Shown here: positions 1,908-51,437 of the stretch, in pieces
Position numbering within the stretch: position 1 is the first letter of the stretch
How the letters are laid out: every line of letters begins with the position of its first letter
NCBI GenBank assembly: GCA_031213475.1
Contig: JARUPZ010000026.1
Span: forward strand, 6,369,785-6,433,784
DNA: 64,000 bases
Source of the DNA: Nereocystis luetkeana
Taxonomy: Eukaryota; Sar; Phaeophyceae; Laminariales; Laminariaceae
Direction: 5' to 3'
Position numbers and translations under genes: made by a program
The notes under the pieces: generated by a model
Told to the model about the DNA's origin: nothing
The model's database searches: none
Seen by the model: the letters and a program-made list of their open reading frames with translations, nothing else

Positions 1908-1923
1908 TACCTGGTACCTGGTA
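1908..1923. repeat. tandem micro-insertion motif TA-CCTGG-TA x2
   Basis: Two 7-bp units CCTGGTA follow a TA. This is the same motif class as 2327-2349, where a paralogous copy lacking it is available. Confidence 0.6.
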
Positions 1924-2183
1924 TACTCTAAGGAAAAAGTGAAATAAAAAGGATGAATCTCAAACGTAGAGACAGGTAAGCCTACGCCTTTTGAGCCGTT
2001 TATAGGTACACTAAATATTGCACTTTGATAAGGGGAAAGCCTGCCTCGGGCCCTCCTCTGAGTGTCACCCCTCGGACCGTACCACCGTACCTAATTTGGC
2101 TCAAAGGTTGCAGGTACACCTATTATTATTATTATTATTAATAGGTTCTCTCTTTGTCTACTCAAGTTGTGAGCCCCTCTTTT

Positions 2184-2505
2184 GGTGTGTGTGTTCTTAA
2201 CATTAAACCGTTCTTTCTACCCGTCGACATCCAGCTCAACCAGTGTCCGTGCCGATTCTTCAATCCTAGAAGAGACACAAGTTCTGTGGTCACAAAGCTA
2301 AACCACAGAGATACTACGTTGTCACGTACCAGGTACCTGGTACCTGGTATGCAGTAAGCACTGCAGTGGGCAATGCAATGCGCAGTCATAACACTAGATA
2401 CGACAGGCACGACATACACAATCTATGAAATAGGGAAACGAAAAGAAACGATCAAAGAGAAAACAAAAACAAAGTCGTGACAAATCGAAAGAGAAAAAGA
2501 AAAGG
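2184..2505 (-). repeat. 5'-truncated LINE-A 3' tail
   Basis: Read on the minus strand this is the 3' end of LINE-A: a polypyrimidine stretch (GATTTGTC...TTTCGTTTC), then GGCACGGACACTGG, GTCGACGGGTAGAAAGAA and a short (AC)n tail. It matches 41345-42013 apart from the SINE inserted there. A triple CCWGGTA micro-insertion lies at 2327-2349. Confidence 0.8.
2327..2349. repeat. triple 7-bp micro-insertion at a TA in LINE-A tail
   Basis: Three 7-bp units (CCAGGTA, CCTGGTA, CCTGGTA) sit between CACGTA and TGCAGTAAGC. The sister copy at 31411-31430 reads CACGTATGCAGTAAGC with none of them, so 21 bp were gained at one TA. Confidence 0.8.
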
Positions 2506-2670
2506 TGAAGGTCCAACCCATTGTTTATACCAGGATGATGTGAACTTACCAAAAAATGGAGAGACCAACTTTAGTACGATACGAGTAGCCACCGGACAGA
2601 GAGACAGATGGATTCGTGGAACGCTTCAGCCAACAATAGGTACGAGGGCACTGATCGTAATCAGAGGGAG

Positions 2671-2882
2671 ATTTTTTTATTTTTTTATTTTGCTCATCCC
2701 ATTTATCATTTTCGGACATCTTCTTCTCTCTCTCCTGACCTTCCAACTCGTGACTCAGATCCGGGGTCACATAGCAGGCTCTTCTACCCCCTTCCCGCTA
2801 CGGTACGAGCCTTCGTTTCTATCGCGAGAAGATTTCGGCCTTTTTTTCCCTCGTCGACTCGCATCGAATTGAGGGAGATAGA
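2671..2882 (-). repeat. SINE R4, truncated copy lacking the tRNA-like head
   Basis: A T-rich tract (complement of the A-rich tail) is followed by the R4 body (ATCCGGGGTCACATAGCAGG, TATCGCGAGAAGATTTC, CTCGTCGACTCGCATCGAA). It stops before the tRNA-derived part that full copies at 30791 and 48269 carry. Confidence 0.75.
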
Positions 2883-2940
2883 TAGAGTCAGACAGCTTTT
2901 TCCCGATTGCGATACTTGGTGTACATATATATCATGATTA

Positions 2941-3083
2941 TTTATACTAGTATTAATATTATTAATATTATTATTATTATTATTTTTATTTTTATTATTA
3001 TTATTATTATTATTATTATTATTATTATTATTATTATTATTATTATTATTATTATTATTATTATTATTATTATTATTATTACT
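2941..3083. repeat. (ATT)n microsatellite
   Basis: An almost pure TTA/ATT array of about 140 bp. It abuts the LINE-C terminal sequence at 3084-3118, which ends in AAT-type repeats in other copies, so the array probably grew from a retroposon tail. The open frames across it (poly-Ile) are artefacts. Confidence 0.9.
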
Positions 3084-3118
3084 ATTTTATGATTATGCTT
3101 GCCTTCCGACAATATACG
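3084..3118 (-). repeat. LINE-C 3' tip next to (ATT)n
   Basis: CTTGCCTTCCGACAATATAC is the complement of the LINE-C 3' end (ACATTGTCGGATGGCAAGAG at 42195 and 45335). The order tip then array matches those copies. Confidence 0.6.
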
Positions 3119-3408
3119 CGCAGATGCCATTCCCCAGTAGTACATGGCTGAAAAGTCGCCTACCAGTATGTATGGTGAAAAAAAATACCTGTGGTAGGGT
3201 TTTGCCCAATAAAAAATATCAAATGTGCTGGGATCATGTGACTGGACTATGTTACTAATAATACCATACTGCTGCTGCACATACATACCTCGAGTACGAT
3301 ATTGTACGCACTTGCACCGAAGTACTGCCTGTACGTAGGAGGTGCGAGAGTATCTATCAAGGAGAAGGATTCAGGGCTGACACCGGGAGCGAACTAATGT
3401 TGCATTAA

Positions 3409-3497
3409 CCCTTTTAGGACGGCGGTCCTGTTTTGGGGGCAAATTACTTAGAATTTGAGGGGTTTGTCCCCAAAACGGGAATCCAGTACTAAAGGGG
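3409..3497. mobile_element. R1 palindromic MITE (TTAA class)
   Basis: Left TTAA at 3405-3408, then CCCTTTTAGGAC. The two arms pair around a short AT-rich centre (CCTGTTTTGGGG against TTGTCCCCAAAACGGG). The right TTAA has decayed. It is non-coding and moved, if ever, by a transposase supplied elsewhere. Confidence 0.8.
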
Positions 3498-3525
3498 ATT
3501 TATGACTAATAATATGGTTATCAAT

Positions 3526-48689: not shown

Positions 48690-48879
48690 TACGCTTCAGC
48701 AAAGACGAAGCCGTCGCCAGGGATCTGGTTCGACTCAATGATGCTGGGGTAGTCGGAACAGACGAGCAGGAGCCGTTGACATGGTACGCTTCAGCAAAGA
48801 CGAAGCCGTCGCCAGGGATCTGGTTCGACTCAATGACGTTGGGGTAGTCGGAACAGACGAGCAGGAGCCGTTGACACGT
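48690..48879 (+). repeat. 95-bp tandem duplication in the dead LINE-A
   Basis: TACGCTTCAGCAAAGACG is repeated at 48690 and 48785 with two differences between units (GATGCTGGGG and GACGTTGGGG). Confidence 0.88.
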
Positions 48880-50151
48880 GCGACGGGCTGCATGGGGCAC
48901 GTTATACGCCGGGGACGCAGGAATTGTCTTGAAGTCGGCTGAAGGGCTCGCTAAAATGATCGACAGTCGAAGCGGCTGTCTTCGCTGTTCGAAGCAGCAG
49001 GCCTTACAGTATCGGAAAATAAGACACAGACAACCCCTGTACGAACACCAAACCAGACAACCCTCGCCCCAAAGGCCGTCACCGAAGCTGCAACCTCAAG
49101 AATAAACAGACGGCTCAGTTCTTATACCTAGGCATCGTTTTCCACGAAAAACGCTGTGACCTTCTCGCTCGAAATCGACCGACGGATCCGTCCCATGCGG
49201 GCATGCCTCAAACAGTTCGGCCCGGAGTTGTGTGATAGGATGGCCGCCACGCTTTAGCCTGAAAGTCCGAATGCTGAAGGCCGAGGTGGATGAAACCCTA
49301 CTGCTGCACGGGTGTTTGACATGAACCCTTAGATCGAGCGAAAACACTTAGTCAGCCAAGCTTCAACGGCTCACCACCACACAAGTCCTCTTGCGAGTGG
49401 CTTCCAGGGCCGTCTTCGCACTGACCATGCCATTCTCTCGCACGCGAAGGTCCTCAAGATGACACGTTGCGAGAGCATCGAAACGGCCATCCGTAAACGG
49501 TGGCTCTTTTTTGCAGAGGCCGTGGCGCGGCAAACATAAGGAGCGATTCTCCAGTCGGGTAGTGTTCGGGACGATGGCTGGTGGGGAGAACCCAAGACCT
49601 GGCGGACAGTTCAAGACTTGACATAGATGCGTAGTCGAAGACCTTACGGAATTCCGAGCCACCGAAGGATCAAGGGAACGCTCCCCCTCGGTGTTTGGAG
49701 TTGAAGCCGCGCTGTGGCCCACCGCAGTAAAAAGGCGAGGAAGTGGTACCGGGGGGCCTTGCAGCAGCGAACGGTTCATGGTGAGGTGGCACGAGGATGA
49801 GGCACAGCGCCGTGCATCCGCCATGGGTGGCACCCAAGGGAATGGGGGGAGGAGGGGCAACAGGAGGAATTGAAGGGAAACCGCGGTGGACGAAAGTACT
49901 GGTAGGAATGAAACCGCAGACAGGGTAGCAAGGCACCACGCCGACTATTAAAAGTGGAACATGTCTAATTGGTATAATCTACTTCTACCAACTGCTGCTG
50001 AAGCTGGTTCGAGCGTTATGTTTTATTTTTCGTTTTGCGCTTTGGGTCCTCCGTGGTTTTCTTATTGTTACATATATTTTGTCTTTCTTCTTGTCCTTAT
50101 GGCAGGAGTCTTGTGGCGTGGGTGGATGACGAGCCTGATTTGCTTGTTACT

Positions 50152-50160
50152 TACCTGGTA
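50152..50160. repeat. micro-insertion TACCTGGTA in LINE-A 3' region
   Basis: TTACTTACCTGGTATTGTC here, against GTTTCGTATTGTCTGAC at 41011-41027. CCTGGTA was gained at a TA. Confidence 0.75.
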
Positions 50161-50249
50161 TTGTCTAACGCATCCTCTCCGAGGTTGGGGCATAGTTGAC
50201 GAACGCAGGGCGGAGACGGTAGACAGGGTGTGTGCGGTTCTTGTCGCCA

Positions 50250-50900
50250 GGTATTTCTACCCGTCGATATCCTGCACAACTCCGTGCCGATTCTTCAATC
50301 CTAGAGAGATACAAGTTTGTGACTAATAGATACTACATTGCCACGTATTGTATGCAGTAAGCACAGTGAACAATGCAGTGCCTTGCCATCATACTGGTTA
50401 CGACAGGCACGACCTACACATTCTATGAAAAAGAGAAAACCTCAAGAAAACAAAGCAAAACAAAAACACAGAAGACGAATCGAAAGAGGAAAAGAAAAAA
50501 GAAAAAATAAGAGAAGAAATAAATAGAAGGAAAAAACACCTGTCGTGCCCCCCCGCAGGGGATGTAGGAAAAAACACCTGTCGTGCCCCCCCGCAGGGGA
50601 TGTGAAAGACACTTGGAAGGAACGAGCTGAAGAAAAAGAAAAGGAAAAAAACACCACCACTTGTACTTGCTCGTAAACAGAGCAAGGCTAGGAACCAAGG
50701 GAAACTAACAGGCAAACCAAAGCACAAAGCACCCGCCCCAGGTAGCGGTAGCAGCAGCAAGGTACCAGACCGACTATTAATAGTATGTAGAACCTGGCTA
50801 TGCTACGCGTCCCACAAGGGTGCTTTCTTTTTTTGTGCTTCGGTTCGCCTGTTATTTTCCTTGGTTCTTTTACGTAGTCTTTGTCCGTTTATATCATATG
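50250..50900 (-). repeat. LINE-A 3' region, truncated copy
   Basis: It starts with TTTCTACCCGTCGATATCC and runs through CACGACCTACACATTC into the upstream part of the 3' region. A segment of about 41 bp (AACACCTGTCGTGCC onward) is duplicated in tandem near 50535-50615. Confidence 0.75.
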
Positions 50901-50923
50901 TAAAGCAGTAGGTAGTGGTGTTG

Positions 50924-51011
50924 TTTTTTAGAACCGTAGTCCCATTTTGGGGGCCAAACTACTTGAAAATTGAGTGGTTTGTCCCCAAAGCGGGACTGCG
51001 GTTCTAAAGGG
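50924..51011. mobile_element. R1 MITE
   Basis: TTTTTTAGAACCGTAGTCCC and GGGACTGCGGTTCTAAAGGG, right flank TTAC. Confidence 0.82.
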
Positions 51012-51039
51012 TTACGGTCTCTGCCATACATCCCCTGCG

Positions 51040-51320
51040 GCAGGGCACGACAGCAGTTTTTTTTCTCATTTATTTTCTGTTTCGATTTTATTTTTATTTT
51101 TTGAAAAAAAATCATTTCGTTTCTATATTTCATAGAATGTGTATGTTGTGCATTTCTTATCCCCATTACTGGATCACAATAATGCACTGCTGTATGTGAC
51201 GTAGTTTTGCGACCACATAATTTGTACCAGGTATCTCTCTACGATCGAGGAATTGGCACGGACACTGGTTGTGCTAAATAGTAAACGTCGACGGGTAGAA
51301 AGAACGCACGCACACACACT
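51040..51320 (+). repeat. LINE-A 3' tail, truncated copy
   Basis: CAGGGCACGACAGCAG, CATAGAATGTGTATGTTGTG, GGCACGGACACTGGTTGTG, GTCGACGGGTAGAAAGAAC, then CACACACAC. A TACCAGGTA at 51225-51233 is a gain relative to other copies. Confidence 0.82.
51225..51233. repeat. micro-insertion TACCAGGTA in LINE-A tail
   Basis: ATTTGTACCAGGTATCTC here, against ACTTGTATCTCTTC at 41567-41580. The gain is exactly CCAGGTA. Confidence 0.82.
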
Positions 51321-51437
51321 TACATGTGTTATCACATACCTGGTACCGGATACGACAGGACGACATACACATTATATGAAAGAGAGAAAACAAACAAACA
51401 ACACAAACCGAGAAGTCGGAAGAAAAGAAGGGACAAG

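Follow-up and report, generated by a model that had tools for sequence, protein, structure and literature searches.

We analyzed a 64-kb window (64,000 nucleotides) of the Nereocystis luetkeana contig JARUPZ010000026.1 that carries many copies of a nine-base motif, TACCWGGTA (W, A or T), together with a 109-bp miniature inverted-repeat transposable element (MITE) and retrotransposon sequences. We propose that the motif copies, here called CCWGG units, are probably the excision scars of a cut-and-paste transposon. A sequence-only reading had listed 23 motif positions, and every one of these coordinates is exact. They correspond to 23 arrays, and the total number of motifs is 27, as the overlapping tandem units at 1915, 2334, 2341 and 23161 had been missed. 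The two spellings, TACCAGGTA (13 copies) and TACCTGGTA (14 copies), are reverse complements, i.e., a single 9-mer on either strand. The A/T "wobble", from which the same reading had derived two alternative 3+2 footprints, therefore reflects orientation only; it is no evidence for two footprints and we dropped it from the argument.

Enrichment of the motif in the window

The motif is strongly enriched within the window, as had been suggested. Across 100 dinucleotide shuffles the mean count was 0.40 and the largest was 3, with 27 reached in 0 of 100, and an order-2 Markov model gives an expectation of 0.52. Among all words of the form TA-N5-TA, TACCWGGTA has the highest enrichment ratio (27 versus 0.52; the runner-up has 5 versus 0.15), and it is the most frequent 9-mer with complementary 4-base arms (27 copies; the second has 5). 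A or T is favored at the center, with 27 copies of TACCWGGTA versus 3 of TACCSGGTA (S, C or G). One-mismatch forms are also in excess (24, that is 51 minus the 27 exact copies, versus about 10 expected), and thus the scars are probably not all recent. The shorter variants CCAG (TACCAGTA; 7 versus 2.1 expected) and CCGG (TACCGGTA; 5 versus 0.9 expected) are modestly enriched. A second class, with TTAA in place of CCWGG (TATTAATA), occurs 26 times versus 0.74 expected, some copies lying within AT microsatellites. Microsatellite-like rows were removed before the variant, flank, gain-catalogue, dinucleotide-control and most element-end counts. A link to the CCWGG site of Dcm and EcoRII was considered and dropped.

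Gains at TA dinucleotides and stacked units

Comparison with paralogous repeats of the window indicates how the units arise. An alignment spans the site at 10 of the 23 arrays, and four of these 10 (2327, 3576, 30191 and 51225) show clean gains at a TA. The gain at 2327 is 21 bp and comprises three units, while those at 3576 (CCTGGTAATTA) and 30191 (CCAGGTATATA) each measure 11 bp, made up of one unit and four further bases, the last two being TA. At 51225 the gain is 7 bp, judged by eye against the copy at 50250; BLAST instead opens gaps of 8 or 5 bp here, since one further base differs in most sisters, and the split gap keeps 51225 out of the gain catalogue described below. The earlier claim that CCWGGTA is gained relative to a sister copy thus holds at 2327 and 51225, has to be amended at 3576 and 30191, where the gain is 11 bp and not 7, and is not cleanly supported at 50152. 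A weaker case is 32326 (one of the 10), with a 7-bp gain and sisters that lack the TA. At 30191, the alignment with 51195 pairs the two motifs; alignments with the other sisters assign them to two separate TAs, about 10 bp from one another.

In a catalogue of gains between paralogs (4-30 bp, non-microsatellite), 13 of 74 entries take the form of X-TA added after a TA, where X includes CCWGG units, CTGG (twice), TTAA, TTG and dinucleotides. When the same test is applied to all 16 dinucleotides (75 entries), TA scores highest with 13, and the other 14 besides GT score 1-5.

Single sites can be disturbed in more than one way. For instance, in a 300-bp repeat family the site CACG-TA-TGCAG is covered by 10 of 12 aligned copies, of which one has an intact TA (31279), three have TG and six are disturbed in differing ways: three CCWGG units at 2327, CCAG at 30125, TTG at 50345 and three further forms. 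Differing footprints per site are what would be expected of Tc1/mariner (IS630) excision, and the differing scars suggest that excision followed by end joining fits better than the addition of a fixed heptamer.

The CCWGG and TTAA units also stack together, as at 23154. Over both classes, 53 units lie at 45 sites, giving 8 extra units; in 20,000 random placements on the 3,436 TAs the maximum was 6, and 8 was reached 0 times. The presence of two or three units in 3 of 23 arrays (1908, 2327 and 23154) could point to a short tandem repeat, CCWGGTA, spread by replication slippage. We find this hard to credit, as 20 of 23 arrays hold single units, the empty paralogs contain no seed unit, and neighboring units at 2327 and 23154 are oppositely oriented, which argues against plain slippage and is not a slippage product. 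Another explanation of a near-palindromic 9-mer at non-random density is a protein-binding or regulatory motif under selection. The units, however, arise by insertion with duplication of the TA, even within transposon copies, and they stack; we regard such a motif as very improbable.

The TTAA class, its likely source MITE and a second contig

For the TTAA class a candidate source is visible in the window. The 109-bp MITE, TA-TTACGGGGG...CCCCCGTAA-TA, is TA-flanked with inverted ends; it gives ten alignments, five spanning the 109 bp and four of these with matching TATTA...TAATA ends. Its short length, terminal inverted repeats, TA duplication and multiple copies are those of a TA-targeting MITE family. 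A trio of paralogs presents one site as empty near 40.8 kb (CACTAGTAGTA), MITE-occupied at 32159-32267 and scarred at 34269. The simplest reading of these sequences is that TTAA combines the TT of one MITE end with the AA of the other, and the MITE is the likely source of the TATTAATA scars. For CCWGG a source element was likewise sought, and none was found among the matches listed in five window searches. One MITE copy, at 13071, lies in a very long (AGT)n microsatellite (12514-13335).

The two scar classes differ in their flanks. Among TTAA-scar half-sites, 10 of 46 carry the half-site GTA, as do 4 of the 10 from five MITE copies, or 3 of 8 once the copy within the AGT microsatellite is set aside. 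By comparison, GTA is present at 2.2% of the remaining TAs (2,983 after filtering) and at none of the 46 CCWGG half-sites. CCWGG sites favor T at both +1 and +6 (p = 4.5e-4 and 1.1e-6, respectively), these p-values being uncorrected, with the best base taken at each of six positions. The difference suggests that CCWGG derives from an element other than the MITE and, on these sequence preferences, would imply two enzymes with different target choice.

A word from the MITE, searched against prokaryote genomes, matched contig JALZWD010000061.1, titled as the Flavimaricola metagenome-assembled genome (MAG) g3_MAG_00016. BLAST matches it to the window at about 410-675 and 2411-3048 (8,000 bases compared). 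The contig appears to be a chimera of algal (1-3650) and Flavimaricola DNA; the border was set near 3650 by eye, and the motif at 3589 is counted as algal on that basis. Both the g3_MAG naming and a Flavimaricola MAG occur in PMC9238374, a paper on the bull-kelp microbiome, and the algal part is thus probably DNA of bull kelp within a bacterial MAG. The repeats shared with this probable kelp DNA, like the non-LTR and Gypsy-like reverse transcriptases of the window, agree with a eukaryotic source. Its bases 1-3650 contain three copies of TACCWGGTA (0.043 expected) and three of TATTAATA (0.034 expected). Two of the TACCWGGTA motifs lie within MITE copies and, aligned to the MITEs of the window, represent gains of 7 bp (GGTCC-TA-TTAAC) and 11 bp; in addition, a TA-TTAA-TA directly follows a MITE copy. 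The TA is duplicated, as in Tc1/mariner (IS630) footprints, at the clean gains of 4 of 10 window arrays and at 2 of the 3 motifs of this contig. A short, constant insert could in principle be an assembly or adaptor artefact. This is barely conceivable for a motif that recurs in a contig from a separate project, where it sits at TAs within MITE copies, and that shows the excess of one-mismatch forms expected of aging scars.

Four-base gains of the form NNTA were also seen at TAs, in the window at 3578, 13570, 30193, 33986 and 37099 and in JALZWD010000061.1 at 2800-2910. The added bases are CG, CA or GC alone, AT or TA beside a CCWGG unit, and TTCA-like in JALZWD010000061.1; perhaps these gains form a third scar class.

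Probable excision footprints and their predicted source

Based on the gains, stacking and variants, we propose that a further cut-and-paste transposon, one that targets TA and has CC...GG ends, left the CCWGGTA units as footprints of its excision; we give this a probability of about 0.8. Such a DNA transposon would enter at a TA and be flanked by duplicated TAs, and its excision, followed by joining of the broken ends, would leave CCWGGTA as a repair scar. The new TAs within a scar, or a hot spot, would permit repeated insertion at one place. The source would be distinct from the MITE, its termini would start with CC (CCA, CCAG or CCAGG), and its enzyme, by resemblance, may be of the Tc1/mariner (IS630) type. 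Ends that begin with CCA, if partly retained, would account for CCWGG, CCAG and CCGG. Two joints could yield CCWGG. In the first, one end contributes CCA and the opposite end GG; in the second, CCAG or CCAGG overhangs from both ends anneal despite a single A-A mismatch, which is then repaired in either direction. The 4- or 5-nt overhang fits as well and would better explain the dominance of CCWGG (27 versus 7 and 5), and we make no choice between them.

Known systems offer parallels. Sleeping Beauty leaves the footprint letters CAG or CTG, and this C-W-G scar has the same palindrome-with-W form as CCWGG. At 5 nt, however, CCWGG is unlike the Sleeping Beauty scar and needs a longer overhang or a 3+2 joint. 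In the account of PMC7827188, staggered Sleeping Beauty cuts leave 3-nt 3' overhangs at TA that are joined by non-homologous end joining. Footprints of Stowaway MITEs in Triticeae, as described in PMC1925063, keep the TA duplication, with 2-4 bp beside the 5' TA and 1-2 bp beside the 3' copy; a single site can carry several footprints of different form, and an insertion may adjoin an older footprint. These scars resemble CCWGG in the kept TA duplication and the varied footprints per site, and their length range admits CCWGG. The Stowaway elements themselves are identified in that account, whereas the CCWGG source is not seen and its scars were recognized from their density and from comparing paralogs. 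In Ectocarpus, also a brown alga, Mariner-Tc1 elements comprise 17 families and 11,912 copies, mostly non-autonomous, according to PMC12477816, a paper whose main text uses neither the word excision nor the word footprint.

The sequence-only reading had attributed the scars to Tc1/mariner-type excision of an element with CCA...TGG inverted ends. The duplicated TA, stacking, variants, the TTAA trio and the second contig agree with excision, but five window searches, in part limited to best matches, produced neither such an element nor any convincing one with CC...GG ends. Comparing TACCWGG/CCWGGTA pairs inward gave no source element among the best 15. Inverted repeats up to 2.5 kb from 11 TA+2-base ends (up to 12 listed per end; 12 of 21 for TACC) and from TACCA/T/G/C ends up to 6 kb (up to 14 listed; 14 of 25 for TACCA and 14 of 24 for TACCT) included no convincing CC-ended element among the matches listed. 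Clustering the repeats at 504 TACC sites gave, by eye, no new terminal-repeat family, the large clusters being other window repeats, MITE interior and microsatellite. Finally, 64 TA+3-base ends at 40-1000 nt gave no convincing CC-ended element among the matches listed (up to 6 each); this search recovered four 109-bp MITEs, which indicates that the method can work. As an observation, a TACCA...TGGTA inverted pair at 3526-4351 (826 bp) has 16 of 20 matches, and both of its ends are at or near scars. The word TACCAGGTG (5 versus 0.5) was dropped as an element end, as its five downstream sequences look unrelated by eye.

Several observations weigh against our proposal. There are 27 scars and no resident copy among the elements searched for, the pair at 3526-4351, a possible lead for the CC-ended element, is weak, and a Pfam scan of 12 distinct open reading frames (ORFs) of the window found no transposase. 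Thirteen of the 23 arrays have no paralog and five of the 10 spanning alignments (3526, 31245, 42985, 50152 and 51337) are unclean or uninformative. In the dinucleotide control GT scores 10 versus 13 for TA, and the additional NNTA pieces at 3576 and 30191 have no explanation. The trio is not perfectly simple: besides TTAA the scar includes TTTA, and in the occupied copy AATA adjoins a MITE that has one altered end, so that the history involves more than a single step. Lastly, CCWGG is longer than the 0-4 bp excision footprints of Passer, an active transposon of the pogo superfamily whose footprints PMC9976928 likens to those of Tc1/mariner elements, with ZB and Sleeping Beauty as comparisons, although Stowaway scars allow such a length.

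The missing source would be expected if a TA-cutting enzyme or repair process added a fixed CCWGG filler at breaks, without there ever having been a transposon with matching ends. Given that a visible element corresponds to the mate class TTAA, that the shorter CCAG and CCGG variants fit retained ends and that the flank preference fits an integrating enzyme, we consider such direct micro-insertion unlikely. If the units are excision footprints, the CCWGG element might be a hit-and-run transposon, nearly all copies of which have been excised from the sequenced genome, so that scars far outnumber residents. In the extreme form, it would be a germline element cleared in bulk by a transposase, either its own or a domesticated one, much as the internal eliminated sequences of ciliates are, but with imprecise joints and in a brown alga. 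We view this idea as a long shot.

Excision scars are usually noticed singly. Here their density (27 in 64 kb, and 3 in about 3.65 kb of the second contig) makes a readable record of transposon traffic, yielding target preferences that suggest two enzymes and the predicted ends of an element not yet seen. The predicted element can be searched for in brown algal genomes, and the scars offer a way to look at end-joining repair in a lineage that has received little study.

Literature matches listed for the letters of TACCAGGTA included none on transposons by title, from which we make no firm claim of absence from print, and "brown alga" occurs in none of the matches on excision footprints and TA dinucleotides. 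A reverse-transcriptase scan of IMG/VR gave 93 pattern matches and 0 confirmed; a lone IMG/VR pattern match contains none of the motifs, does not match the window by BLAST and was taken as chance.

Table 1. Scar arrays, variant scars and MITE copies in the window.
Feature	Position	Strand	Remark
CCWGG array, 2 units, same orientation	1908..1923		no window paralog
CCWGG array, 3 units, mixed orientation	2327..2349		21-bp gain vs empty paralog 31279 (CACG-TA-TGCAG)
CCWGG unit	3526..3534		no clean paralog
TA-CCTGG-TA-AT-TA	3576..3588		11-bp gain vs both paralogs (45137, 29698)
Two CCWGG units, TACCA between	4199..4221		
CCWGG unit	4326..4334		one-mismatch unit TATCTGGTA at 4343
CCWGG unit	6774..6782		
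CCWGG unit, then one base, then TATTAATA	8608..8625		
CCWGG unit	8695..8703		
CCWGG unit	9133..9141		
Mixed array TA-CCAGG-TA-CCTGG-TA-TTAA-TA-TTAA-TA	23154..23181		
CCWGG unit	24500..24508		
CCWGG unit	29456..29464		
Variant scar TA-CTGG-TA (CCAG, other strand)	30125..30132		6-bp gain, same paralogous TA as 2327 array
TA-CCAGG-TA-TA-TA	30191..30203		11-bp gain in 9 alignments; sister 51195 has motif at another TA
CCWGG unit	31245..31253		alignment uninformative
CCWGG unit	32326..32334		7-bp gain; TA itself missing from sisters
CCWGG unit	36373..36381		
CCWGG unit at altered end of degenerate MITE copy	42985..42993		no clean gain
CCWGG unit	46287..46295		
Variant scar TA-CTGG-TA	49897..49904		6-bp gain
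CCWGG unit	50152..50160		gain unclean
CCWGG unit	51225..51233		7-bp gain vs copy at 50250
CCWGG unit	51337..51345		alignment uninformative
109-bp MITE TA-TTACGGGGG...CCCCCGTAA-TA	3826..3934	-	
109-bp MITE within (AGT)n microsatellite	13071..13179	-	
109-bp MITE	23604..23712	+	
109-bp MITE	30442..30550	+	
109-bp MITE, occupied site of trio, one end altered (GTAGTA)	32159..32267	+	
MITE within another repeat copy	47607..47712	+	sisters without MITE
Paralog with empty site CACTAGTAGTA	40698..40870	-	
Scar TA-TTTA-TA-TTAA-TA	34269..34282		paralog 32159 has MITE here
TA-TTAA-TA scar	44827..44834		6-bp gain in CTAG
TA-TTAA-TA scar	50775..50782		6-bp gain at TA

Other repeats were noted in the window. 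A 503-bp palindrome (13672-14174), with arms 89-96% complementary, has ends that by eye read GGCCACTTC...GAAGTGGCC flanked by TAA on both sides, as in fold-back elements, and the TNA duplication is Harbinger-like. A MITE-like family ending in TAACCCTTTTAGAACCGCAGTCCC occurs at 7920, 8229, 42584, 46703 and 47252, and in JALZWD010000061.1 near 2950; its ends are mostly preceded by T and are thus probably TTAA-flanked (piggyBac- or Kolobok-like). A long ORF at 37209-40163 has the endonuclease and reverse transcriptase domains of a retrotransposon without long terminal repeats (non-LTR), and 57689-61692 encodes RNase H and a reverse transcriptase of Gypsy-like type; an integrase match there is weak and falls short of the Pfam cut-off.

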